Part shown: positions 1,753-15,425 of the stretch, in pieces
Layout of the letters: the number at the start of each line of letters is the position of its first letter
Numbering within the stretch: position 1 is the first letter of the stretch
Origin: Paramylibacter ulvae
Lineage (GTDB): Bacteria; Pseudomonadota; Alphaproteobacteria; Rhodobacterales; Rhodobacteraceae
Assembly: GCF_014652655.1 (NCBI RefSeq)
Contig: NZ_BMZF01000001.1
Span: 372,001 to 436,000 of the forward strand
DNA: 64,000 nt
Reading direction: 5' to 3'
The notes under the pieces: generated by a model
Database searches by the model: none
What the model was told of the DNA's origin: nothing
The model's input: only the letters and a program-made list of their open reading frames with translations
Made by a program: the position numbers and the translations under genes

Positions 1753-3813
1753 ATGAATAAATTAATACACTACTTGTCGGTCCTCATGTCCGTCTGTATC
1801 ACACTGATCGCAAGCGCGGTATCGGCACAGGTGGATTATGAAACCTTGGCCGCCAAAATCGAACCTCCATTCGCGCTGGGTGATGAAATTGGTGATCGCA
1901 CTTATGAAATCATCAATCTTGATGGGCGCATTGGTGGTTATGCGTTTGAAACTATCCCTTATGCCGTGATCCCTGGGTTTTCGGGCGCACCGATTAATTT
2001 GTTTGTCACCATTGATTTGCAAGGCAAATTCATTGATGCCGAAATTTTGGAACATAACGAGCCGATATTTGTGTCTGGCTTGGACGGTGCGTTGTTCCAT
2101 AACTTTGTCGAACAATACAAAGGTAAATCAATTTTTGACACGCTGGTTGTTGGCGTACCATACGGCGGCAAAGACGGTGCATCGTCCCTGATTTATCTCG
2201 ACGGTGTGACCAAGGCCACGGCCAGTGTACGCATCGCGCATGAAACAATTTTGGCAGCAAGCTTTAAGGTTGCCAAAGAAATGTTGCAACAAATCCCCTC
2301 TGGTCCACCCGCAAAACCAAACGTGGAATATAATGAAAATTTAGATTGGCAAGCCTTGATCGACAAGGGTATCGCCACACGACGGCTGGTTAAAAATAGC
2401 GAGGTTCAAGCCGCATTCGACGATACATTATGGGAGGATGACGATCCCATCGCAGCGGATGAACCAGATGAACCCTATCTTGATTTGTGGCTGGTTGATG
2501 TTGGCCCACAATCCGTTGCCCGTGCGGTTTTGTCCGCGGATGCCTATGACGAATTACAAGGTTTTATGGAAATTTCAAACCATGATGAACCCCTGTTGGT
2601 GATCGATGCGGGGCGTCATGGTTTGGTTAGCGATACATTCATTCGTAACACCAGCCCAGATTTAATCGAAGCACACCAAGACGGGTTCCCTATCGCCCTG
2701 CGCGATTCTGATTTGGATGTGGAATTGGCGGATGGTGTTCCCGGTGAAACGGCCATGATATTTCGCACAGATCGCCGTTTGGGATTTGACCCAACACGTG
2801 ATTGGACCATCAGAATAAAGGCCGTGCGTGAACACGGATCATTTCGACCGGAACTGGGCAATGTATCATTTGATGCAAATCACAAAACCGATGAACGATT
2901 TTTCATTCGTGAAAAGGTTCATGTTCCAACACCGCCATGGGTAGAAGCCATTCAATCGCGGATTGTCGATCTTGTCATATTGGCGATCACGCTGTTTGCG
3001 CTTGTCTGGATTATGTTGGGTAAAATAAACTGGTTGGCCGGGCATAGATATTTTACCCCTATTCGCCTTTCTATTTTGGCGTTTGTGACCTGTTTCATTG
3101 GATGGTGGGGCCAAGGACAATTATCTATCGTCACACCATTGGGGGTGATGCGTTCGGTTTACGAAGGGCAAAGTTTGGCATTCCTGCTCTACGATCCGTT
3201 TTCATTGCTGATCTGGTTGGTGGTAATAGTATCATTCGTTTTGTGGGGGCGTGGGTTGTTTTGTGGCTGGCTCTGCCCGTTTGGCGCATTACAAGAATTT
3301 GCTCATCATTTGGGGCGTTTGTTACGCCTGCCTCAATTCACCGTGCCAGACCGCGTTGATGCGGTTCTGATTTATTTGAAATACCCCGTGCTATTCGGGT
3401 TGATTTTCATGGCGTTCTATAACCCGGATGTTGCGGATAAACTGGTAGAGGTAGAACCGTTCAAAACCGCAATCACGACCTATTTCATTCGCAACTGGTA
3501 TTACGTCGCATATGCTGCACTTTGGTTGGTGTTGGGCATGTTTGTTTTCAAAAGCTTTTGCAAATATCTCTGCCCATTGGGTGCGGTGATGGCCATTGGC
3601 GGGTTGATCCGTGGGCGCGATTGGATTGAACGTCGCAAGGAATGCGGATCGCCCTGTCAGCTTTGCAAAGTGAAATGCAATTACGGCGCGATTAAAAAAA
3701 CGGGCGAAATAAAATATAGCGAATGTTTTCAATGTCTTGATTGTGTCACCATTCATGACAACCCAAAACAATGTGTACCATTAATCCTAGCGCAAAAAGG
3801 CAAAACATTATGA
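1753..3813 (+). CDS. nosR: NosR/NirI-type membrane flavo-iron-sulfur protein
   Basis: The 686-residue protein has a signal peptide (to about residue 25), a periplasmic FMN-binding domain (about 30-190), an extended periplasmic region, several membrane helices (about 405-600) and a C-terminal ferredoxin-like part. The TKATAS motif at 153-158 resembles the ApbE flavinylation site, with Thr156 the likely FMN carrier. Two cytoplasmic CxxxCP motifs are visible (CGWLCPFGAL, CKYLCPLGAV). The end holds Cys clusters including CGSPCQLCKVKC and CFQCLDC. NosR proteins move electrons from quinol to the periplasm for nitrous oxide reduction. No nosZDFY follows here, so the partner may differ. The gene overlaps apbE by ATGA. 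Confidence 0.85.
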   Translation: MNKLIHYLSVLMSVCITLIASAVSAQVDYETLAAKIEPPFALGDEIGDRTYEIINLDGRIGGYAFETIPYAVIPGFSGAPINLFVTIDLQGKFIDAEILEHNEPIFVSGLDGALFHNFVEQYKGKSIFDTLVVGVPYGGKDGASSLIYLDGVTKATASVRIAHETILAASFKVAKEMLQQIPSGPPAKPNVEYNENLDWQALIDKGIATRRLVKNSEVQAAFDDTLWEDDDPIAADEPDEPYLDLWLVDVGPQSVARAVLSADAYDELQGFMEISNHDEPLLVIDAGRHGLVSDTFIRNTSPDLIEAHQDGFPIALRDSDLDVELADGVPGETAMIFRTDRRLGFDPTRDWTIRIKAVREHGSFRPELGNVSFDANHKTDERFFIREKVHVPTPPWVEAIQSRIVDLVILAITLFALVWIMLGKINWLAGHRYFTPIRLSILAFVTCFIGWWGQGQLSIVTPLGVMRSVYEGQSLAFLLYDPFSLLIWLVVIVSFVLWGRGLFCGWLCPFGALQEFAHHLGRLLRLPQFTVPDRVDAVLIYLKYPVLFGLIFMAFYNPDVADKLVEVEPFKTAITTYFIRNWYYVAYAALWLVLGMFVFKSFCKYLCPLGAVMAIGGLIRGRDWIERRKECGSPCQLCKVKCNYGAIKKTGEIKYSECFQCLDCVTIHDNPKQCVPLILAQKGKTL

Positions 3814-4709
3814 CAATTTCGCGCCGCCGTTTTATCGCCATCAGCGCCGCCGCCATGGGCGTTGGTATGCGCGCGCAGGCCAGCACGTGGCGGGGTGTTG
3901 CAATGGGTGCGGATGTATCAATTACGCTGCACGCAAATGAGGCTGATGCGGATCATATCCTCGCGCTCGCGATTTCGCGTATCCGTCAATTGGAAAATGA
4001 ATTTTCACTCTATCTGACACAGTCGCGAATTTCCGCACTAAACGATACAGGTAAATCTGTAAATACACTTGATTTTAATGCGTTATTGAACGAAGCGAAT
4101 GAGATATACAATTATACGAATGGCTTGTTTGATCCAACGATTCAACCCCTGTGGCGTGCATATGCAGATGATCCGAATTTGCCCGCAGACGCACAGCAAC
4201 AAGCGTTGCTACGCGTGGGTTGGCAGCATGTCGAGAATACAGCTAAACACGTGCGATTTGCGCGTGCCGGTATGGCGATGACGCTAAATGGCATTGCCCA
4301 GGGATTTATCACGGATCAAATATCCGCCCTGCTCGCGACACACGGATATGATGATGCAATCGTTAATATCGGTGAATATCGCGCAGGTGCGCGTGCGGCG
4401 CAGATTGCGGTTGCTGGAACCGATGATATCGTCACGTTGAAAAACGCTGCACTTGCCACATCTACGCCGACTGCCTTGATGTTAAACGGGGATACAACGC
4501 ACATTTTACATCCCCGATACGGCGCTATTCCCAGCGTTTGGAAAACTGTCACCGTGGCGGCGAAACGCGCAAGTATCGCGGATGGGGTGTCAACCGCGCT
4601 ATGCCTTACGCCTGATCTGCGACTTGCGCAAAAATTGATTGAAAACGGCGTGATCCAGCGTTGTTTGTTGGTGGATAATAATGGGAAACTCACCACTCTG
4701 GCGGGTTAA
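3810..4709 (+). CDS. apbE: FAD:protein FMN transferase, ApbE/NosX type
   Basis: The enzyme covalently attaches FMN from FAD to a threonine of a partner flavoprotein in the periplasm. I chose the ATG at 3810, which overlaps the upstream stop as ATGA and implies coupled translation; the protein is then 299 residues. It starts MTISRRRFIAISAAA, a twin-arginine-type signal. Family features are RGVAMGADVSITLH, the ENEFSLYLTQSRISALND stretch, the LNGIAQGFITDQ loop and the IADGVSTAL metal-site region. The upstream NosR-like FMN domain is the obvious substrate. It converges with the next gene, with a 20-base overlap of the 3' ends. Confidence 0.88.
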   Translation: MTISRRRFIAISAAAMGVGMRAQASTWRGVAMGADVSITLHANEADADHILALAISRIRQLENEFSLYLTQSRISALNDTGKSVNTLDFNALLNEANEIYNYTNGLFDPTIQPLWRAYADDPNLPADAQQQALLRVGWQHVENTAKHVRFARAGMAMTLNGIAQGFITDQISALLATHGYDDAIVNIGEYRAGARAAQIAVAGTDDIVTLKNAALATSTPTALMLNGDTTHILHPRYGAIPSVWKTVTVAAKRASIADGVSTALCLTPDLRLAQKLIENGVIQRCLLVDNNGKLTTLAG

Positions 4710-5586
4710 ACTGTAACCCATAGCTGGCAAATATATCTGCCATGCGCCCGTCATTGACCGCCGCGCGTATTGCATCATCAACAGTATATCCCAATGGCCG
4801 CCAATTGTGGCGCACGGCAACGCCCAATGTCCATTGAGATTTTGCCAACCCAACTAATGGTGGTTGATGAACCGAAAGCCCATCAACCAGCCCGTGTTCC
4901 AACTGGCCAATTGGCCCTGTCACGGCGGCAACTTGTTTGTCGCGCAGCGCCGCCATTGCATCATCAATATGATCAAAGCGCACCATATTTGGCACCATCA
5001 GACCATTTGCAATGGACGCAAGATAGAAATCCGCGAGCGTATCGTTTTCAACGCCAACCTTATCATATCGAAAATACGCAGGCGTGGGGCCGCCATCAGG
5101 GTAAACATCGTCACGATACGCAATGGCGATTTTTTCGTTGAAATATTGCCCTGTCAAAACAACCTGTTCATTGCGACAACCCAGTTCGTGATCATATGGA
5201 ACATGCATCATCACATTGGCAATCTGCCCGCTGATCAGTTTTCCACGCCATACATTGTTGCGTAAATCAGCATCGACATTTTCGTCTGCTGCCGTTTGGA
5301 AAAATCGTGCCTCAACACCCAAATCCTGTGCGATTAATCGGCCAAGGTCGACATCAATGCCGACCAATGAACCATCCTTCATCCATGAATATGGTGCGTA
5401 ATCCTCGTAAACGGCAAACATCATCCAGCCACGTTCGATGATATCGTCAAGGCTCTGCCCGACGATATCACGCGCGGTGTTTTGCGGCTTGCCATATGCC
5501 TCTAACCCTGATTTCACCCCTTCGCAGTTTTGCGCAAATGTTGGGGGGGCGATCAGAAACGCAAGCGCTGCAAGACAGCAGCGCAT
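4690..5586 (-). CDS. XoxJ/MoxJ-like periplasmic binding protein of a quinoprotein dehydrogenase
   Basis: The 298-residue protein has a short signal peptide (ends near TFAQ) and a family 3 solute-binding fold. It carries MFAVYEDYAPYSWMKDGSLVGIDVDLGRLIAQDLGV, the usual ligand-domain opening. It matches the subgroup found beside PQQ dehydrogenases (MoxJ/XoxJ) rather than amino-acid importers: there is no permease next to it, and its ATG overlaps the stop of a PedF-like cytochrome gene as TAATG. Such proteins are thought to help mature or activate the quinoprotein. The family assignment is good; the precise partner (the dehydrogenase at 13656) is inferred. Confidence 0.75.
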   Translation of the reverse strand: MRCCLAALAFLIAPPTFAQNCEGVKSGLEAYGKPQNTARDIVGQSLDDIIERGWMMFAVYEDYAPYSWMKDGSLVGIDVDLGRLIAQDLGVEARFFQTAADENVDADLRNNVWRGKLISGQIANVMMHVPYDHELGCRNEQVVLTGQYFNEKIAIAYRDDVYPDGGPTPAYFRYDKVGVENDTLADFYLASIANGLMVPNMVRFDHIDDAMAALRDKQVAAVTGPIGQLEHGLVDGLSVHQPPLVGLAKSQWTLGVAVRHNWRPLGYTVDDAIRAAVNDGRMADIFASYGLQFNPPEW

Positions 5587-6317
5587 TATTGCGCGACAGA
5601 CAGGCCGACGGATAAAATATCAACGGCCTTTTTCAAGCTGCCATCGCTGTTATCCAATACGGCCACAGCGCGTGATGCAACGGAATCTGCCAGTGGTGCA
5701 CCCGATCCGGTTTCAACAGTTTGTGCAATATCTGTAAGCTGTTGTTTAATCGCACCAATATCATCTGCGTAATCCGCCACGGTTTTATCACCTGCGTTTA
5801 TCGATGCTGATTTTGATTCCAGATCGGTTTTGATCGTTTGCAATGCATCGGTGTGATCATCCAGCGCGCCATCATCGGGGCGTGTTTCAAGATATGTACG
5901 AATGGCCCATGCCGCCTCTTGTGATAACAATTCGCCAAAGGCAGGCATTTTGGTAATACCGTTTTGCGTGAACCCGCCATTAAAGCGTTCCATATACCAT
6001 TCATCGCCATCGATGTCGGCCTCTAGATAGCGCAAATCAGGGGCAAGCCCACCAGACACTGCGCCCAAACCATGGCAACGGGCACAGTTTTGATTGTACC
6101 CAGAATCGCCAATAGCCACAGCTGCGGACCACGCATCGCCTGTTGGATCGCGCCATGGGTTTTCCTCTAACTGTTCATCACCCAAATTGGGCAAACCAGC
6201 GGTATCCACCGCTTGTGGCGCCACATCGCCGTGTGCGTTTACTGATGCAGTTGGTGCCAAAAATAAAACGGCAACGCCACATGACATCGCGGTAAGAAAA
6301 CCAAAACCCTTGTTCAT
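5586..6317 (-). CDS. pedF: Periplasmic cytochrome c550, PedF-like
   Basis: This probable electron acceptor of the PQQ alcohol dehydrogenase has 243 residues. I start it at 6317 because a GGGAGG SD lies just upstream; longer in-frame starts have none. A signal peptide runs to about NAHG. The heme-binding CARCH follows YNQN, and ITKMPAF gives the probable axial methionine. The GGLAPDLRYLEADIDGDEW segment is typical of the c550 associated with quinoprotein ethanol dehydrogenases. A helical C-terminal extension of about 90 residues follows the heme domain. It is translated together with the XoxJ-like gene and is divergent from the PedA1-like gene. Confidence 0.8.
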   Translation of the reverse strand: MNKGFGFLTAMSCGVAVLFLAPTASVNAHGDVAPQAVDTAGLPNLGDEQLEENPWRDPTGDAWSAAVAIGDSGYNQNCARCHGLGAVSGGLAPDLRYLEADIDGDEWYMERFNGGFTQNGITKMPAFGELLSQEAAWAIRTYLETRPDDGALDDHTDALQTIKTDLESKSASINAGDKTVADYADDIGAIKQQLTDIAQTVETGSGAPLADSVASRAVAVLDNSDGSLKKAVDILSVGLSVAQ

Positions 6318-6372
6318 TACGAACCTCCCAAAGCTTGTTTGTGACCTTTTGCCAAACTCCGACAAATCCTTC

Positions 6373-6449: not shown

Positions 6450-7625
6450 ATGAAATTATTAGGACTGGCATGTGCGATCATCATCGCAATGCTTGCAAAT
6501 ACTACGTTTGCGTCTGATTTACGCGTGTCGATTACCTATGTGATGCGTGAACAAAACCAGGCGCCGACACTTTCAAATCTTGATCCGATTCCAGAAAACT
6601 TAGGGCTGATCGGTGCCGAACTCGGGTTGGTAGACAATCAAACCACGGGCAAGTTTTTGGGGCATGATTACACATTGAACATTATAACCTTATCGCCCGA
6701 CCAAGACATATCAACGTTGAAAGACCAGATAGATTTCAGCCAAACAATTGTGGTTGCAAACGCGCCTACGCCAGATCTGATTGCCATATCACAAATGGGG
6801 GCGAATGCCCCTGCGGTTTTGTTCAACGCCAGCGCGATGGACAATACATTGCGCGATGATGCCTGTTTGCCCAACATGTTTCACACCGCGCCATCACATG
6901 CGATGTTAACAGATGCGCTTGCCCAATTTGGGTTTGCGAAAAAATGGCAACGCTGGGCGATGATTGTGGGACCACAAGTGCATGATCGAGCCCTCGCCGC
7001 ATCGTTTGAAAAATCAATCAACAAATTTGGCATTGATCTGGTTGCACGCAAAGAATGGACATTTGACACCGATATGCGCCGCAGTGCCAGCAATGAAATC
7101 CCACTGTTCACACAGGATTTTGCAGATCACCAAATGCTTGTTGTCACTGATGCCACAAACGATTTTGCGCGATATGTGGTTTATAATACATGGGCACCCC
7201 GCCCCGTTGCGGGTTCGGTTGGGCTGATCACTTCGGGTTGGGCGCGATCCGTGGAACAATTTGGTGCTGTACAATTGCAAAATCGTTTTCGTGAACTGGC
7301 AAAGCGTGACATGCAACAAACCGATTACGCAAGTTGGGCCGCAATACGGGCAATCGGCGAGGCTGTGACGCGCACCGACAGCAACGATTTGCAAACGTTA
7401 AAATCATACCTTTTATCGGATGAATTCGCGCTCGCTGGATTCAAGGGGCGCAAATTATCGTTTCGATCATGGAACGGACAAATGCGACAGCCTATCGTTT
7501 TGGCACATCACGACGCCATGGTTGCGATGGCACCGCTCGCTGGGTTTTTACATCAATTTAACGAATTGGATACGTTGGGGTTGGATCAACCTGAATCCAA
7601 TTGCACGGCTTTTCAGGAGGACTAA
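6450..7625 (+). CDS. pedA1: PedA1-like substrate-binding protein of a PQQ-linked ABC transporter
   Basis: The 391-residue secreted protein starts at ATG 6450 behind GAGGGA; an in-frame TTG at 6438 is less likely. The signal peptide ends near TFAS. The remainder has a Leu/Ile/Val-binding-type fold with the opening DLRVSITYVMREQ. It resembles the subgroup encoded with PQQ alcohol-dehydrogenase systems. In Pseudomonas putida the PedA1A2BC system is needed for lanthanide-dependent growth, and LutA of Methylorubrum is of this kind. The stop is followed directly by pedA2. The substrate here is not shown by the sequence; lanthanide is the leading guess. Confidence 0.72.
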   Translation: MKLLGLACAIIIAMLANTTFASDLRVSITYVMREQNQAPTLSNLDPIPENLGLIGAELGLVDNQTTGKFLGHDYTLNIITLSPDQDISTLKDQIDFSQTIVVANAPTPDLIAISQMGANAPAVLFNASAMDNTLRDDACLPNMFHTAPSHAMLTDALAQFGFAKKWQRWAMIVGPQVHDRALAASFEKSINKFGIDLVARKEWTFDTDMRRSASNEIPLFTQDFADHQMLVVTDATNDFARYVVYNTWAPRPVAGSVGLITSGWARSVEQFGAVQLQNRFRELAKRDMQQTDYASWAAIRAIGEAVTRTDSNDLQTLKSYLLSDEFALAGFKGRKLSFRSWNGQMRQPIVLAHHDAMVAMAPLAGFLHQFNELDTLGLDQPESNCTAFQED

Positions 7626-8582
7626 ATGCGATTTACACTGTTGTTCGCCCTGTTATGTTCACCCGCCTTTGCGGATGAAATTTGGGTGACGAACGAAAAA
7701 GACGACACCATTTCGGTGATCGATATTGAAACCCAAACTGTCACGCGCACCATCGAAACAGGGCAACGCCCGCGCGGCATTACATTTTCCAAAGATTTTT
7801 CCGTGCTTTACGTTTGTGCATCTGACAGCGATGCAGTGCAGGTGATTGATCCCGAAACGGGAAAGGTTCTTCATGAATTGCCATCGGGCGAAGATCCTGA
7901 GCAATTCGTTTTGCACCCCAACGACAAACATCTTTATATCGCGAACGAAGATGATGCGATTACAACGGTTGTTGACACAGAAACACACCGTGTCATTGCC
8001 CAGATTGATGTTGGCATCGAACCCGAGGGCATGGCCGTTTCGCCCGATGGAAAGGTTGCGATAACCACATCTGAAACCACGAATATGGCGCATTGGATTG
8101 ACACGGAAAATCAAACCATTTTCGCCAACTCACTGGTTGATCAACGTCCCCGCCATGCAGAATTCACCAAAGATGGTTCCGAATTATGGGTCAGCTCTGA
8201 AATCGGTGGCACGATCAGCGTGTTTAACACCGCCGATCAATCTGAAAAGGCCAAGATCAATTTTGAAATTCAAGGTGTGCACCGCGATCGGATCCAACCC
8301 GTTGGGTTCGAGCTTACCAATGATGGGAAATATGCGTTCGTGGCACTTGGGCCATCGAATTATATCGCGGTGGTCGATCCCACATCATATCAGGTTTTGG
8401 ATTACATCCTCGTCGGGCGGCGTGTTTGGCATATGGCATTCAACGCCGATGAAACTCAGCTTTATACGACTAACGGAATATCAGGCGACGTCAGCGTCAT
8501 TGATATCCCATCACTCAAAGCAATCAACACAATCAAGGTCGGGCGGTTCCCATGGGGCGCTGCATTTCGACCAACAAAATAA
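7626..8582 (+). CDS. pedA2: PedA2-like secreted YVTN beta-propeller protein
   Basis: This 318-residue protein has a 16-residue signal peptide (ends PAFA). The mature part is built from repeats of about 40 residues with patterns such as VTNEKDDTISVIDIETQTV, LYVCASDSDAVQVIDPETGKV and LYIANEDDAITTVVDTETHRV, typical of YVTN seven-bladed propellers. Many acidic loop residues are present. Proteins of this subgroup are encoded with PQQ-linked ABC transporters. A GGAGG SD overlaps the end of pedA1, giving zero-base spacing and an operon. A binding or chaperone role for a metal or cofactor is possible, but it is not shown by sequence alone. Confidence 0.8.
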   Translation: MRFTLLFALLCSPAFADEIWVTNEKDDTISVIDIETQTVTRTIETGQRPRGITFSKDFSVLYVCASDSDAVQVIDPETGKVLHELPSGEDPEQFVLHPNDKHLYIANEDDAITTVVDTETHRVIAQIDVGIEPEGMAVSPDGKVAITTSETTNMAHWIDTENQTIFANSLVDQRPRHAEFTKDGSELWVSSEIGGTISVFNTADQSEKAKINFEIQGVHRDRIQPVGFELTNDGKYAFVALGPSNYIAVVDPTSYQVLDYILVGRRVWHMAFNADETQLYTTNGISGDVSVIDIPSLKAINTIKVGRFPWGAAFRPTK

Positions 8583-8593
8583 CGGAGATTATA

Positions 8594-9055
8594 ATGAAAG
8601 ACACATTAATTAAACTTGGCTGCATCCCATTGATCATGGCCGCGGGGATCGCGTTTGCAGACGATGATGATGATGATGACGATAACGGATTTGGGCAGGC
8701 GGGTATTTTATCCAAAACCAACCGTGGTGATATTCCTGAAATTTCACTATCATCTGGTATGCCGTTACTAGAGGATGGTGATACCATCACACTTAAATCT
8801 GGCATGTATTACGAGTTGGAAATCAACGCGGATGGCAGCCAGGAATTGGCACTTGGTGGCGCTGATTTTTTCCGTGCTATTTGGGTTGATGAATTCGTGG
8901 TCGAGGGGATCGAGCTTCGCCCCTATGGAATCGATAGTATGGAATTTGACGAAGCAGGTGAAGCAGAGCTATCATTTGTGGCAATAAAACCAGGGAGCTA
9001 TCGCTTTGGTGTCCCGGGAAGTGATTTACAGACTGTGACCATAAACATTGAGTAA
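8594..9055 (+). CDS. Small secreted protein with N-terminal octa-aspartate, function unknown
   Basis: A 153-residue protein starts at ATG 8594 behind GGAG. The signal peptide ends GIAFA and is followed at once by eight Asp and one Asn, so the mature N-terminus is predicted to be a naked poly-acidic tail. The remaining 120 residues look like an all-beta domain (LKSGMYYELEINADG, ADFFRAIWVDEF, IKPGSYRFGVPG). That is cupredoxin-like in rhythm but has no His or Cys in the mature chain, so it cannot form a normal copper site. It lies between pedA2 and pedB in one operon. A periplasmic calcium or lanthanide binder is a reasonable inference. I cannot name a family. Confidence 0.85.
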   Translation: MKDTLIKLGCIPLIMAAGIAFADDDDDDDDNGFGQAGILSKTNRGDIPEISLSSGMPLLEDGDTITLKSGMYYELEINADGSQELALGGADFFRAIWVDEFVVEGIELRPYGIDSMEFDEAGEAELSFVAIKPGSYRFGVPGSDLQTVTINIE

Positions 9056-9767
9056 ATATGCCCTGTCGGTATGCGATCTAAGCTATGCGTATGCCACAAA
9101 AAATGCGCTAAAAAATGTGTCTTTTGATATTCCAAAGGGCAACTTTTGTGCATTGCTCGGTCCCAATGGCGCGGGCAAATCGACATTGTTTTCGGTGTTA
9201 ACGGGATTGGTGCAATCACCCGATGGCGCGGTTTCGGTTTTGGGGCATGATTTGGCCAGTTTTGGACGATTGGCACGGCGCGATATTGGCGTTGTCTTTC
9301 AACAACCGACCCTTGATCTGGACGTGAGTGTAACCGAAAACCTTTTGTATTTTGCAGCACTTCACGGAATTTCTCGTCGCCGCGCAAAACCACGCGTGAT
9401 GGATGCGCTTGATCGATTATCAATGGGTGAACGCGCAGGCGAAAAGGTGCGAAACCTGAATGGTGGGCATCGTCGCCGCATGGAAATTGCGCGTGCATTG
9501 ATCCATGAACCATCGGTTTTGTTGCTGGATGAACCAACCGTTGGGTTGGATCACGAAACGCGCATATCGATCACGCAATATGTGCATCAACTTTGCGATG
9601 ATGGCATCACCATTTTATGGGCCACGCATTTGGTTGATGAAATCAAACCAACCGATCATTTGGTTTTGCTGCACCATGGCCAAGTGTTGGAAACGGGCCG
9701 CGTATCCGATGTGGTTGGCACGAAAGATTTGGCGCGCTGGTTTTCTGATCAAACGGTGGATGCATGA
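9048..9767 (+). CDS. pedB: PedB-like ABC transporter ATPase (PQQ-linked system)
   Basis: This cytoplasmic ATPase has 239 residues. Walker A is GPNGAGKST. The signature is LNGGH instead of the usual LSGGQ. Walker B is VLLLDEPTVGLD, and the switch histidine is in WATHLVDE. The subgroup is the DrrA/NodI-like one that works with ABC-2 permeases. The start is a TTG at 9048 inside the last codons of the preceding gene (8-base overlap); no in-frame ATG fits the conserved N-terminus. Weak initiation or coupling to the upstream gene is therefore likely. It overlaps pedC by ATGA. Confidence 0.85.
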   Translation: MSKYALSVCDLSYAYATKNALKNVSFDIPKGNFCALLGPNGAGKSTLFSVLTGLVQSPDGAVSVLGHDLASFGRLARRDIGVVFQQPTLDLDVSVTENLLYFAALHGISRRRAKPRVMDALDRLSMGERAGEKVRNLNGGHRRRMEIARALIHEPSVLLLDEPTVGLDHETRISITQYVHQLCDDGITILWATHLVDEIKPTDHLVLLHHGQVLETGRVSDVVGTKDLARWFSDQTVDA

Positions 9768-10555
9768 TATATCTTACCGCATTAACTGCGATTATACGGC
9801 GCGAATTGCTCCGCTTTGTTGGGCAACGCTCACGATTTTTATCCGCACTTGTGCGCCCATTAATTTGGTTGGTGGTGTTTGCCGCTGGCTTTCGCGCGGC
9901 ATTGGGGTTATCAATCATGCCCCCCTATCAAACCTATATCACCTACGAGGTTTATATCGTGCCTGGCCTGTGTGGGATGATCCAATTATTCAACGGCATG
10001 CAATCATCGTTAAGCCTTGTTTATGATCGCGAAATGGGATCGATGCGGTTGCTGTTAACCAGCCCTTTGCCGCGATGGTGGCTATTGCTATGTAAAATAT
10101 TCGCAGGCGTTTTTGTGTCATTGCTGCAAGTTTACGCATTCCTTGGTATCGCCGCACTGTTTGGCATTACGTTCCCGCCAATGGGGTATATCCTCGCCCT
10201 ACCCGCCTTGGTTTGTAGCGGTCTGATGCTGGGTGCGCTCGGCTTGTTATTGTCTTCAACCATCAAACAGTTGGAAAATTTCGCGGGGGTTATGAATTTT
10301 GTGATCTTCCCAATGTTTTTCCTGTCCACGGCATTGTACCCATTGTGGAAAATGGCCGAAGGGTCGCCGTTGTTACGCGATGTCTGTGCCTATAACCCAT
10401 TTACCCATGCGATAGAGCTCATCCGTTTTGCACTCTATATGCAATTTAATGGCGCGGCGCTGATCTGGGTTGTTACATCCTTCGTCGTATTTATGATTGC
10501 GAGCCTTTGGGGATACAATCCGGCCAAGACCATGACAAACCGTAAAATGGGCTAG
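9764..10555 (+). CDS. pedC: PedC-like ABC-2 type permease
   Basis: The inner-membrane protein has 263 residues and about six hydrophobic helices. It carries the ABC-2 signature region around FFLSTALYPLWKMAE and YNPFTHAIELIRFALY near the C-terminus. The ATG overlaps the PedB stop as ATGA, so the two are made together. ABC-2 permeases usually export, yet the operon includes a classical periplasmic binding protein, so the direction of transport is not settled by sequence. In P. putida the related set supports lanthanide-dependent growth. Confidence 0.82.
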   Translation: MIYLTALTAIIRRELLRFVGQRSRFLSALVRPLIWLVVFAAGFRAALGLSIMPPYQTYITYEVYIVPGLCGMIQLFNGMQSSLSLVYDREMGSMRLLLTSPLPRWWLLLCKIFAGVFVSLLQVYAFLGIAALFGITFPPMGYILALPALVCSGLMLGALGLLLSSTIKQLENFAGVMNFVIFPMFFLSTALYPLWKMAEGSPLLRDVCAYNPFTHAIELIRFALYMQFNGAALIWVVTSFVVFMIASLWGYNPAKTMTNRKMG

Positions 10556-10585: not shown

Positions 10586-11137
10586 ATGAAATATTTATTA
10601 ACCGCCGCAATAATATCACTCTCGCTTTCAAGCGCAGCGTACGCAGCCAACGAAGAAGACGTTGATGGCGGCACGCTTAACCCCGAAGAAATGACATTAC
10701 GAAAATCCGTAAAACGCGCCAAAGACGGCGATGTAAACATGGTAATTTGTTCGCAAGGGTATTTATTGACCAAGGGCGGATCACACGCAGATGCCCGCGC
10801 CATTTTTCGCGAATGCGCCAACCAAGGATACACCAGCGCGATGACATGGATGTCATATATGGATGACAACGGGTTTGGTGGTGAATACGATCCAGACTCT
10901 GCCGCAGATTGGGATCGCCGCGCCGCTGATGCAGGTGATGAAATGGGCATGTATAATTATGGGCTTGATCTGATGCGCGGGCATGGGAAAACGCAAAATA
11001 TCGAGCTGGGCCGTCAATATGTGGATCAGGCCGCCAATATCGGGCTGGGTATCGCCAAACAATTACAGATGGATGATTACGACGTTGAAACAGTTACGCC
11101 CGATGCGGATAACTGGAAATACGCACCCAATTATTGA
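10586..11137 (+). CDS. Secreted Sel1-repeat-like protein
   Basis: The 183-residue protein has a signal peptide (ends AYAAN). I chose ATG 10586 because AAAGGG lies seven bases before it and only one base before the alternative ATG at 10580. The mature part contains helical repeats such as HADARAIFRECANQGYTSAMTWMSYM, DSAADWDRRAADAGDEMGMYNYGLDLM and ELGRQYVDQAANIGLGIAK, which fit Sel1/TPR-like units. Such proteins act as scaffolds for periplasmic complexes. It follows pedC by 30 bases and may belong to that operon. Its stop overlaps the stop of the convergent ATPase gene. Confidence 0.75.
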   Translation: MKYLLTAAIISLSLSSAAYAANEEDVDGGTLNPEEMTLRKSVKRAKDGDVNMVICSQGYLLTKGGSHADARAIFRECANQGYTSAMTWMSYMDDNGFGGEYDPDSAADWDRRAADAGDEMGMYNYGLDLMRGHGKTQNIELGRQYVDQAANIGLGIAKQLQMDDYDVETVTPDADNWKYAPNY

Positions 11138-11721
11138 ATAATCGTCGCAGGATTACCGCCCAACGTGAGGCGACGATCGGTTAAAAACGCGGCTTCTTTT
11201 TGTGAATGTGTGACCAACAGCAATGCCATATCGCGCGCATCGACCACCTGTTTTGTCAGCGACAACATTTCATCGACCATATCACCGTCAAGGGATGCGA
11301 ATGGTTCATCAAGGATCAATAATTCTGGTTCCATCGCCAATGCACGGGCCAATGATACACGGCGCTGCTGACCAAGCGAGAGCTGCAATGGAAACATCTG
11401 TGCCTTTTCGCCCAACCCAACCTCTGATAAAATGGTTGTTAATGTCGCGTCATCTTTGCGTGTTGTGATACGCAAATTATCCATCACATCGCGCCAGTTT
11501 AATAATGTGGGTTCTTGGAACACCACGGCGCTGTTTTTAACTGATGATACCTGCCCGTCATAATCGGTATCCAACCCCGCGATCACGCGCAGCAATGTGG
11601 ATTTTCCAACGCCAGATGGCCCAACAATCGACACCCGTTCGTTGGTATCAATGTTAAAATTCACATCGACCAGCACCAATTGTTCGCCGAATGATTTGCG
11701 TTTAATTGCAACCGAAATCAT
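11131..11721 (-). CDS. ABC importer ATPase, SsuB/TauB-like
   Basis: This 196-residue ATPase is short for the family (usually about 250). Walker A is GPSGVGKST, the Q-loop is VFQEPTLLNWRDV, the signature LSLGQQRRVSLARAL and Walker B LLILDEPFASLD. I start it at ATG 11721, which has GGAG six bases upstream and overlaps the permease stop as ATGA; a TTG at 11733 is less likely. It energises the permease at 11718 and the binding protein at 12466. The substrate of this importer is unknown. Its place beside a PQQ dehydrogenase suggests a cofactor, metal complex or alcohol-derived substrate. Confidence 0.82.
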   Translation of the reverse strand: MISVAIKRKSFGEQLVLVDVNFNIDTNERVSIVGPSGVGKSTLLRVIAGLDTDYDGQVSSVKNSAVVFQEPTLLNWRDVMDNLRITTRKDDATLTTILSEVGLGEKAQMFPLQLSLGQQRRVSLARALAMEPELLILDEPFASLDGDMVDEMLSLTKQVVDARDMALLLVTHSQKEAAFLTDRRLTLGGNPATIIQ

Positions 11722-12491
11722 CTGTGTCTCCAACGGTTAGCATGGTTTTCGATGGGTTGCAGGATCAGATATTCCACCACAAGCATGACCAGCATGAATG
11801 AAATTGCATAGGCCAAAACACGCCCCACATCAAACAGTTGGAAATACAAATGGATTTGAAACCCTACCCCGTTTGATCGCCCCAGAAACTCCACCACCAA
11901 CACGATTTTCCAAATCAATGCCAACCCCGTGCGTGCGGACGCGGCCAATTGTGGTGCCAATTGGGGGATAACCACATGGCGCAACCGTTCGGTGCGTGAC
12001 ATCTGAAATACCTGTGCCATATCAAACAATTTGGGATCCAACGCACGCGCGCCTTCGCGGATCATTACGGTCACCATCGGAATTTTGTTCAAGGACACCG
12101 CAACAATTGCCGCGGTTTCCGTGAGCCCAATCCACAAATAACACAACACAATTGTGACCAGCGCCGGCAGGTTTAAAAAAATCAAAAGCCAGCTATCAAA
12201 CCAACGGTTCACAGTGCGGTTTCGCCCCATGATCAGGCCAAATATAACACCCAAAGACATGGCAATAACGAATGCAAACGCAACACGGCGCAATGTGATT
12301 GCAATGTGAAATAACAATTCGCCCGATTGCAATTCCGCAATCATCAATCGCCAAACAGCAAGCGGCCCTGGCAATGTTTCGCGATCTTGCAAAACAATGG
12401 CCAAGCACGCCCAGATTGCGACAAATGCCGCAATCGAAATTATCCGCGAAAGCGTTTTAATCTGTTTAACTTTCTGGTTGTAAAAACACAC
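11718..12491 (-). CDS. ABC importer permease, SsuC/TauC-like
   Basis: The 257-residue membrane protein has about six helices and a binding-protein-dependent transport EAA-like loop around REGARALDPKLFDMAQVFQMSRTERLRHVVIP. It belongs to the aromatic-sulfonate/taurine/nitrate permease group by layout. The apparent start is GTG at 12491, lying inside the 3' end of the binding-protein gene (26-base overlap), with AAGG almost adjacent; no ATG is available near the N-terminus. The start is therefore less certain than the gene. It is the second gene of a three-gene importer operon. Confidence 0.8.
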   Translation of the reverse strand: MCFYNQKVKQIKTLSRIISIAAFVAIWACLAIVLQDRETLPGPLAVWRLMIAELQSGELLFHIAITLRRVAFAFVIAMSLGVIFGLIMGRNRTVNRWFDSWLLIFLNLPALVTIVLCYLWIGLTETAAIVAVSLNKIPMVTVMIREGARALDPKLFDMAQVFQMSRTERLRHVVIPQLAPQLAASARTGLALIWKIVLVVEFLGRSNGVGFQIHLYFQLFDVGRVLAYAISFMLVMLVVEYLILQPIENHANRWRHR

Positions 12492-13440
12492 CTTGTGGCA
12501 AGGTTACAGCCTTGCCAACCAGTTTTTCACCCCCAAATTTTGCCATCACTTGCAACAATGTTGCAGCGTCTTTTTCATTCACGGAATAGCTTGTTGGGAT
12601 ACCTGCGCGAAATCCATCCTTTAGCGCATTAAATGCACTGTCTTTTTCGGCACGCATCATTGGGCGCAAACGATCCCATGCGGTATCATCTGTTGCCAAA
12701 ATTTCCTTGGCTTGGCGTGATGCCATTGCCAATCCGTTCACCAGTTCAGGATGTTCGCGTACCAATTCGCCCCGCACCACATATCCCAGCAATGGTGTTT
12801 CGCTGCTTAGTCCCAATTCATTTGCTGCATCAGCAACGGAAACAACTTGGCGCATACCCGCCGCTTGCATTTTTGCGTTGAAATGCCAGAAATTTATTGC
12901 GGCATCTACCTCTCCGCTGAGTGCTGATTTAAACACAAGGGGTGGTGCGCCGAAAACCTGTTCGGTTTCCCCCGCCAAATCAAAGCCGCCTTTTTGTTCC
13001 GCTAATGCGCGAAGCAACAACCAGCTTTTGTCCACTGGTCCACCAGCAATACCGATTTTTTTACCCTTTAAATCGGACAGTGATTGAACTGGGCTATCTT
13101 TTTTCACCAACAAACCACCAACAGCCTTGGAATATGGAATGAATACAAAATCTTTGCCATCGGCACGTTGGCGTGCAACCCAGATCCAATCGGCAACCAT
13201 GACATCTGCCTCGCCGCCTTGGAATGCGATGCGGGTTGCGGGATTGCCAGCCATGCCCACAATTTGCAAATCAAAACCGTTTTTTTGATCAAGACCGTTG
13301 TGTTTAATCGTGTCCAATTCCCAATTGACCGTACCCACCTTTAACACAGCAGCGCGCAGCACTGGAGTTTCGGCATTACCAAGACTGGCAAATAAAATCG
13401 TTGCGATGAACGCCGTTATGATCAAACGAAGCTGGTTCAT
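12466..13440 (-). CDS. Periplasmic binding protein of the importer, SsuA/NMT1-like (PqqT candidate)
   Basis: The 324-residue protein has a signal peptide ending GNAE. Its core has the family features GMAGNPATRIAFQGGEADVMVADW, SLSDLKGKKIGIAGGPVDKSW and AAINFWHFNAKMQAAG. These proteins bind small anionic ligands such as sulfonates or nitrate. A periplasmic binding protein of this general kind, PqqT of Methylorubrum, binds PQQ and lies near xox genes, so cofactor uptake is one option here. That is an inference from location only. The gene is divergent from the PQQ dehydrogenase and shares its regulatory region. Confidence 0.75.
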   Translation of the reverse strand: MNQLRLIITAFIATILFASLGNAETPVLRAAVLKVGTVNWELDTIKHNGLDQKNGFDLQIVGMAGNPATRIAFQGGEADVMVADWIWVARQRADGKDFVFIPYSKAVGGLLVKKDSPVQSLSDLKGKKIGIAGGPVDKSWLLLRALAEQKGGFDLAGETEQVFGAPPLVFKSALSGEVDAAINFWHFNAKMQAAGMRQVVSVADAANELGLSSETPLLGYVVRGELVREHPELVNGLAMASRQAKEILATDDTAWDRLRPMMRAEKDSAFNALKDGFRAGIPTSYSVNEKDAATLLQVMAKFGGEKLVGKAVTLPQGVFLQPES

Positions 13441-13572: not shown

Positions 13573-13655
13573 CCCCGTTTTTGCCGCCTGTTCCATAATT
13601 CCCCCACCATAAGGGCGACTCTTTGGGTCGTGACCTTGCACTAAGGGAGGATTGT

Positions 13656-15425
13656 ATGAGAAATTTTGTAGCGGGGGCAGTCGCATGCCTGATCGCGGCT
13701 TCACCAGTGTCCGCAGGACCAGTAACAGAAGCTGACATTGCCAATGATACCGCAAACACCAGCAGCGTGTTAACAAACGGCATGGGGCGTCATTTGCAAC
13801 GCTTTTCACCGTTGGAAATCTTAAACAAAGACAACGTCAAAAATTTGGTGCCAGCATGGGCATTTTCGCTTGGCGGTGAAAAACAGCGCGGCCAAGAAAC
13901 ACAGCCTTTGGTACATGATGGCGTGATGTATATCACCGGTTCATATTCACGCATGTATGCGATTGATATCAAAACTGGCAAAGAGATCTGGCAATACGAT
14001 GCCCGCCTGCCCGAAGGTATCTTGCCATGTTGTGACGTGGTGAACCGCGGCGCAGCAATTTACGGCGACACCGTATTTTTTGGCACATTGGATGCGCGTA
14101 TTGTTGCGTTGAACGCAAAAACAGGTGACGTAATCTGGCGCAAAAAAATCGCTGATTACAAGGCAGGGTATTCATACACTGCGGCACCTTTGATCGTGAA
14201 CGGTCTGGTCATCACGGGTAACTCTGGCGGTGAATTTGGTGTGGTTGGCGAAGTCCAAGCACGCAGCGCCGAAACAGGTGATCTGGTTTGGACACGCCCC
14301 GTGATCGAAGGTCACATGGGCACGTTGAACGGCGAAGAATCCACCATGACGGGTACACTAAACGCGACATGGCCTGGTGACATGTGGAAAACAGGTGGCG
14401 GTGCAACGTGGCTGGGTGGCAGTTATGATGCCGATACCGACACGTTGATTTTCGGCACAGGCAACCCTGCCCCATGGAACAGCCACCTGCGTGGTGCGGG
14501 TAAACCCACCGATGGCAACACCGGCGATAACCTTTATGCCGCAAGCCGTCTGGGCATTGATCCCGCCACTGGCGAAATCAAGTGGCATTTCCAAACAACC
14601 CCACGTGAAGGTTGGGATTTTGACGGCGTGAACGAGGTCGTCGCCTATACCGATCGTGAGGGCAACAAGCGTTACGCCACGGCGGATCGCAATGGCTATT
14701 TCTATGTCTTGAACCGCGAAGATGGTGAATTCGTTTCGGCATCACCGTTCGTTCAAAACATCACATGGGCCGAAGGCATTGATGAAAACGGTCGCCCGAT
14801 TTTCGTTGAAGATAATCGCCCTGGTGATCCAACTGCCGCCGCTGATGGGAAAAAGGGTGAAACAACATTCTCCGTTCCTGGATTTTTGGGTGGCAAAAAC
14901 TGGATGCCAATGGCGCACAGCCCCAAAACAGGTCTGTTCTATGTTCCGTCAAACGAATGGGGCATGGATATTTGGAATGAACCTGTGACCTATAAAAAAG
15001 GTGCGGCGTATCTTGGCTCTGGCTTTACCATCAAACCATTGTTCGAAGATTACATTGGTTCGCTCAAGGCCGTTGACCCAGATACAGGCGACATCAAGTG
15101 GGAATACAAAAACAACGCGCCTCTTTGGGGTGGCGTAATGTCCACCGCTGGCGGGCTTGTATTCACGGGCACACCAGAGGGTGATTTCAAAGCGTTCGAT
15201 GATGAAACCGGCGAAGAGCTTTGGTCATTCCAAACGGGTTCTGGCATCGTTGGTCAGCCAATCACATGGGACATGGACGGCGAACAATATGTTGCTGTGG
15301 CCTCTGGTTGGGGTGGCGCGGTTCCATTGTGGGGCGGCGAAGTTGCCAAAAAGGTAAACTACCTGAACCAAGGTGGCCTGATGTGGGTATTCAAATTACC
15401 CAAACAAATGGCATCAGCCAACTAA
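13656..15425 (+). CDS. PQQ-dependent alcohol dehydrogenase, lanthanide-type (ExaF/PedH/XoxF-like)
   Basis: This periplasmic type I quinoprotein has 589 residues and no heme domain. It oxidises primary alcohols with PQQ and passes electrons to cytochrome c. The start at 13656 follows GGGAGG; the signal peptide ends PVSA. The adjacent Cys pair is at 125-126 ([10 protein letters not shown]). Expected metal ligands are Glu193 (GGEFG) and Asn270 ([10 protein letters not shown]), with the catalytic Asp321 and Asp323 in WDFDG. The second Asp is the residue that separates lanthanide enzymes from calcium MxaF, which has WDFAG. The [10 protein letters not shown] and [13 protein letters not shown] segments look closer to ExaF/PedH ethanol enzymes than to XoxF. 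A terminator follows. Confidence 0.9.

Follow-up and report, generated by a model that had tools for sequence, protein, structure and literature searches.

The window analyzed here, a stretch of 64,000 nucleotides from the Paramylibacter ulvae genome, carries at 8594..9055 (+) a gene for a periplasmic protein of 153 aa plus stop, assigned to the LutC family by reading of the sequence, homologs, and gene order. Its start codon ATG (8594) and stop codon (9053–9055) were read directly from the DNA. Upstream lie the genes for a PedA1/LutA-type substrate-binding protein (6450..7625, +; TIGR03863) and a PedA2/LutB-type YVTN beta-propeller (7626..8582, +; TIGR03866), the latter being the most constant neighbor of the family. 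Downstream are those for a PedB/LutE-type ABC ATPase (9048..9767, +; TIGR03864) and a PedC/LutF-type ABC permease (9764..10555, +; TIGR03861), and all four matches exceed the NCBIfam cut-offs of the PQQ-dependent alcohol dehydrogenase ABC system. An initial sequence-only reading had placed the gene between pedA2-like and pedB-like genes with an 8-base overlap into pedB, and these TIGR03866 and TIGR03864 neighbors confirm it. The TTG start of pedB at 9048 was taken from a mechanical ORF list; a sister locus (L002) looks alike, with the homolog match at 10001–10450 plus stop and the PedB match from 10446. Further members of the neighborhood are the cytochrome c-550 PedF (5586..6365, -; TIGR04494), an SBP_bac_3 protein (4690..5586, -; Pfam match) that is presumably PedG/XoxJ-like by position, and a PQQ alcohol dehydrogenase with a WDFDG (DxD) motif (13653..15425, +; TIGR03075). 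An inspection by eye of the ORFs listed for positions 1–22,000 revealed no gene for LutD, LutG, LutH, or LanM. A promoter consensus scan returned 13 sites against 7.8 expected, one of which, found by consensus alone, lies at 8567–8595, just before the ATG of the LutC-family gene.

The encoded protein comprises three parts. A putative signal peptide with an AFA cleavage site spans residues 1–22 (8594..8659, +), the site being placed on the sequence by eye and with a home-made rule rather than by a dedicated predictor. Directly after the residues GIAFA follows a tract of eight aspartates, residues 23–30 (8660..8683, +), encoded by GAC-GAT-GAT-GAT-GAT-GAT-GAC-GAT; the AlphaFold pLDDT is below 50 for residues 21–29. 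Residues 43–153 (8720..9052, +) form a predicted cupredoxin-fold domain without copper ligands, according to AlphaFold, Foldseek, and alignment. The octa-aspartate after the predicted cleavage site and the domain free of His and Cys had both been noted from the sequence, and both were verified: the mature protein (after residue 22) contains no His and no Cys, and the sole Cys lies in the signal peptide. The protein has no Pfam match up to E 1 and no NCBIfam match up to E 0.1. Runs of at least six GAY codons occur at two sites in the whole genome (3,169,477 bases, 25 contigs), and only the run in the 8594–9055 gene reaches eight; the other, of six codons, lies on contig C1 at 889966–889983.

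The LutC-family gene is tightly linked to the ped transporter genes. Among the 295 genomes of the home family, the gene was found in 81 (91 homologs) and PedC above the cut-off in 91; 80 genomes have both, one (G078) has the gene only, and 11 have PedC only (Fisher p about 1e-58, kinship ignored). All 91 matches were inspected in context, 30 of them with flanks of about 1.5 kb and the other 61 with up to 9 kb. A PedA2 gene on the same strand and no more than 400 bases away accompanies 78 of them, upstream in 75 cases and downstream in three. Of the remaining 13, twelve share their stretch with genes for PedA1, A2, B, or C, which brings the matches with ped genes nearby to 90, and L087 has no ped gene beyond a weak ATPase match. 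In a larger set of 152 distinct proteins, derived from 192 ORFs after profile matches under 60 bits had been dropped, PedA2 lies within 400 bases upstream in 106 and within 600 bases downstream in 11; these counts are biased because part of the loci were chosen via PedC, and the unbiased figure is that of the 91 matches.

Genomes were also sampled at higher ranks, some of them being common to more than one sample. At the order level, 40 loci were selected for PedC, from 39 of the 91 PedC genomes of the order sample, and 20 of these loci also carry the gene, which in one case runs off the end of the stretch. In the class sample (385 genomes), the gene was matched in 28 genomes and PedC in 57, with both in 25. 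All 22 genomes matching at E<=1e-20 also have PedC, as do three (G310, G603, G622) of the six with weak matches, the others being G302, G520, and G561. None of eight weak class-level loci inspected has ped genes beside the match, and three of the weak matches are copper-type cupredoxins. One strong class homolog (L161) lies in a stretch without ped genes. In the phylum sample (188 genomes), the gene was matched in 27 genomes and PedC in 28; all 14 strong matches (E<=1e-31) are in genomes with PedC, and none of the 13 weak ones (E 5e-20 to 8e-8) is. These 13 may include a branch of the family away from ped genes, and if they are true homologs, the strict link would be weakened. Upstream of PedB, a look at 14 selected loci, the majority lacking the gene, revealed nothing LutC-like, and no LutC-like match was found downstream of PedC in loci L180–L219 among the matches listed.

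The identity of the gene is suggested by gene order. In Methylorubrum extorquens AM1, Roszczenko-Jasinska et al. (PMC7391723) named META1p1778 to 1785 lutA to lutH, and lutB and lutE are separated there by lutC and lutD. Four loci of one bacterial family, f70 (L168, L269, L270, and L271), show the order substrate-binding protein, YVTN protein, homolog, an exported two-Cys protein of ~80–96 aa, ATPase, permease, and an exported WPC..WTGP protein, except that no substrate-binding protein was detected in L271. This order equals lutA-B-C-D-E-F-G of M. extorquens AM1, and the homolog occupies the lutC place. In sequence, the f70 homolog of G574 was matched significantly, with 116 bits (E 3.7e-33), by a profile built without any f70 sequence, and the window protein is about 35% identical to the f70 homolog over 110 residues. 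In L270, a LanM above the NCBIfam cut-off (NF053806) follows the lut-type genes. The window gene itself lies in the LutC place, between the TIGR03866 and TIGR03864 genes. A second published arrangement is the TMED127 cluster, written as lutABEFCG in PMC12542740 and taken here as gene order; in seven class loci from genomes of 1.2–2.5 Mb, the homolog likewise comes directly after the permease, and a LutG-like motif was not found in these seven. With the homolog in the lutC place of the f70 clusters and after the permease as in lutABEFCG, the window gene is very probably LutC, the name resting on gene order in f70 relatives and one published order. An assignment as LutG was rejected because another exported protein follows the permease in f70, and one as LutD because LutD is the small two-Cys neighbor. 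The LutD-place and LutG-place proteins of the f70 cluster (L168:9358-9597 and L168:11451-12074) have no Pfam or NCBIfam match.

LutC of M. extorquens AM1 (META1p1780) and the window protein are alike in gene-order place, signal peptide, and kind of transporter partners, and in lut-order genomes the lutC place is held by a homolog of the window protein; the Asp8 tail of the window protein is absent from the f70 homologs. In M. extorquens AM1, the loss of lutC resulted in a small growth defect with La and the loss of lutD in no significant defect, and LutD and LanM bind lanthanides (PMC7391723). As a very probable LutC by gene order, with a small growth defect published for AM1 only, the gene is not entirely without a description. 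A literature search on LutC with lanthanide, thin on subscription journals, found LutC treated in PMC7391723 only and named within "lutABEFCG" in PMC12542740. Until now, LutC has amounted to hardly more than an entry in the list of lanthanide uptake genes. S. meliloti grows La-dependently on methanol, and the lut homologs listed in PMC12628762 are lutA, B, E, F, and G, without lutC. On pSymB, a homolog annotated as "hypothetical protein" lies in the xoxF region, right after the propeller, which was located by profile. Plasmid homologs are "hypothetical protein" or unannotated among the matches listed, and Phaeobacter also carries a homolog. LutC is not universal even in f70, because the stretches L183, L272, and L273 contain PedB and PedC and lack the homolog. 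In L272, a LanM-like EF-hand protein, recognized by motif, lies beside a lutA-B-E-F set without a lutC-type gene.

The AlphaFold2 model, computed with 22 sequences, reaches a pLDDT of at least 90 at residue 41 and beyond, and its tail is disordered. In a Foldseek search, the best 50 of 1519 matches are all cupredoxin-fold proteins by title, with E from 1.9e-6, including copper nitrite reductases, AcoP, laccases and other multicopper oxidases, nitrous oxide reductase, and SufI. The TM-scores are modest, about 0.42–0.53 by query, with AcoP chains at 0.48–0.58 by target length. The fold of the LutC family is thus predicted to be a cupredoxin beta-barrel, a structural prediction with TM-scores near 0.5. 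A sequence profile searched against the PDB found no cupredoxin and two chance matches to filamin, and a Pfam scan of 40 family members gave chance matches only, with Cupredoxin_1 in one at E 0.17. The predicted fold is shared with SufI, which is copper-free, and with cupredoxins such as AcoP and the nitrite reductase domains, but the copper ligands of the latter (His, Cys, His, and Met) are absent from the mature window protein. The Cys-His-Met loop is kept in none of the 152 family proteins. A mature part free of both His and Cys is seen in 55 of the 152 and is therefore not a family rule. Three distant relatives (L179, L206, and L207) keep a His and a Cys-His-Met loop, and they possibly represent a copper-binding ancestor type of the LutC domain. 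In two alignments, their first His lines up beside Leu85, the residue that follows Glu84 in the window protein; the idea that Glu84 replaced the first copper His was accordingly rejected.

Conservation in the family points to acidic residues, with the columns of Glu84, Glu107, Glu117, and Asp119 being acidic in 97–100% of the 152 homologs. Lanmodulin, LutD, landiscernin, and lanpepsy, a PepSY-domain protein, are also small periplasmic proteins of lanthanide-using bacteria, but the window protein differs from them in having no EF-hand or other Pfam match and in not being the two-Cys protein of the LutD place. EF-hands, the lanmodulin trait, gave no Pfam or NCBIfam match in the window protein, with LanM of L270 matched as a positive control; the PepSY domain, the lanpepsy trait, gave no Pfam match up to E 1.

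The dehydrogenase of the window has its best PDB matches in 6zcw and 6zcv, which we take to be P. putida PedH, and shares the motif GWDFDGVNE with both. The DxD motif marks lanthanide use. Among the 82 dehydrogenase matches of at least 1,200 bases in the loci, which were not deduplicated and include loci chosen via PedC, 79 have DxD at the motif, one has DFS, and two lack the motif; shorter matches were left out, among them three of the distant group L107, L110, and L112, in which the motif was not found. The co-occurrence of homologs with PedA1A2BC and WDFDG dehydrogenases, proposed as a check by the sequence-only reading, is strongly positive.

With the mature start set by the home-made cleavage rule, four or more acids occur in the first 12 mature residues of 41 of the 152 proteins, and a run of at least four Asp occurs in 33; two proteins have eight or more, and the longest run ranges from 0 to 9. 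A tree of 148 rows, with four near-identical rows left out and the tail columns excluded, has few columns and many open forks; on it, the acidic-tail trait (39 rows) requires at least 19 changes, whereas 200 shuffles gave 34.7 on average and never fewer than 30. A single 69-row group holds 34 of the 39 acidic-tail rows, yet the six-row clade of the window protein itself includes only two such rows. A Rhizobium homolog (L223) carries a DNDDDD tail of its own. Biased toward one clade and variable in length, the tail is an addition that probably owes something both to selection for acidity and to slippage of the codon repeat. The acidic tail is labile and found mostly in one clade, and the octa-Asp tract is not the heart of the family; as a mark of the whole family the tail was rejected, and a family-wide metal role cannot be founded upon it. 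Grouped by dehydrogenase context, and with kinship ignored, proteins with four or more tail acids make up 16 of the 36 whose stretch holds a PedH-like dehydrogenase, 4 of the 39 whose stretch holds only another type, and 21 of the 77 without any in the stretch.

LutC is probably an accessory periplasmic subunit of the PedA1A2BC/LutABEF lanthanide uptake system. In P. putida, PedA1A2BC is needed at nanomolar La and was described as four genes (PMC6839425). LutC in the periplasm may dock with the PedA2/LutB beta-propeller and the PedA1/LutA binding protein, and the docked protein would help a lanthanide or lanthanide chelate to reach PedBC. The Asp tail, where present, may serve as a flexible antenna that attracts lanthanide (or calcium) ions electrostatically and so increases their local concentration, as an add-on rather than the core function. 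Against this proposal, 11 of the 91 home-family genomes with PedC are without the gene, so that some PedA1A2BC operons lack LutC. Also against it stand the f70 stretches without the homolog, the loci L087 and L161, the weak phylum matches in genomes without PedC, the small size of the AM1 phenotype, and the rarity of the tail among relatives. The tightest link of the family is that to PedA2 and not to the dehydrogenase, and a role in serving the transporter therefore fits better than one in feeding the dehydrogenase. The functional part of the sequence-only reading thus survives in its link to the lanthanide machinery (the 80 of 81 genomes), but loses the tail as a family-wide basis (the 41 of 152) and the dehydrogenase as the closest partner.

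That reading, in which a periplasmic lanthanide or calcium buffer or chaperone delivers metal to the PQQ dehydrogenase and the Asp tail is the putative binding site, is plausible but unlikely. It draws on the Asp8 at the mature N-terminus, on the DxD-type dehydrogenases of the loci, and on the enrichment of acidic tails beside PedH-like enzymes (16/36 vs 4/39 and 21/77, kinship ignored), whereas the absence of the tail from most of the family, its changes on the tree (at least 19), and the constancy of PedA2 as the neighbor argue against it. A partner that serves only the structure or assembly of the PedA2 propeller or of the ABC transporter, without any part in metal handling and with an Asp tract arising mostly from codon-repeat slippage, would also account for the tight PedA2 link, for the GAY repeat with its variable length among relatives, and for the absence of the gene from some intact-looking PedA1A2BC operons. 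This explanation is rather unlikely, as acidic tails cluster on the tree beyond all shuffles and recur in the Rhizobium homolog, and the four core carboxylate columns are almost invariably acidic. A cupredoxin-type copper or electron-transfer protein working with PedF and the dehydrogenase, as the predicted fold and the three distant relatives with intact loops might suggest, is extremely improbable and was rejected, since the mature window protein has neither His nor Cys and the loop is absent throughout the 152.

Direct lanthanide binding by the core or the tail is conceivable but doubtful. If the tail or the core does bind lanthanides, the beta-barrel would join the few known lanthanide-binding proteins. 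In a more speculative proposal drawn from the model, LutC may represent a new structural class of lanthanide handler, namely a cupredoxin barrel that has lost its copper and would use the conserved carboxylate set Glu84, Glu107, Glu117, and Asp119, plus a disordered poly-Asp arm in one mainly Rhodobacterales clade, to capture the lanthanide or its chelate and hand it to the LutB propeller and LutA for import. The recognition of a wide family tied to PedA1 and PedA2, without a Pfam or NCBIfam model and predicted to be a copper-less cupredoxin, makes the role of the small periplasmic lut proteins directly testable.

In addition, several features were observed around the ped genes. Near pedF, at 1753–4709, are genes for a NosR-like membrane protein (464 bits, where NCBIfam sets its NosR cut-off at 1000) and for an ApbE flavin transferase. 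The pair is found again near ped genes in relatives such as L004, L006, L020, and L021, which hints at an electron path via flavin. A second ABC system (binding protein, permease, and ATPase) adjoins the ped genes on the minus strand at 11131–13440; similar sets lie between the homolog and PedB in S. meliloti and L278, and after PedC in R. leguminosarum. An unrelated exported protein of ~195 aa stands between PedA2 and PedB in L267 and L283. Two loci, L165:8998-10105 and L172:8690-9766, carry two adjacent homolog copies beside PedA2, PedA1, and PedC.
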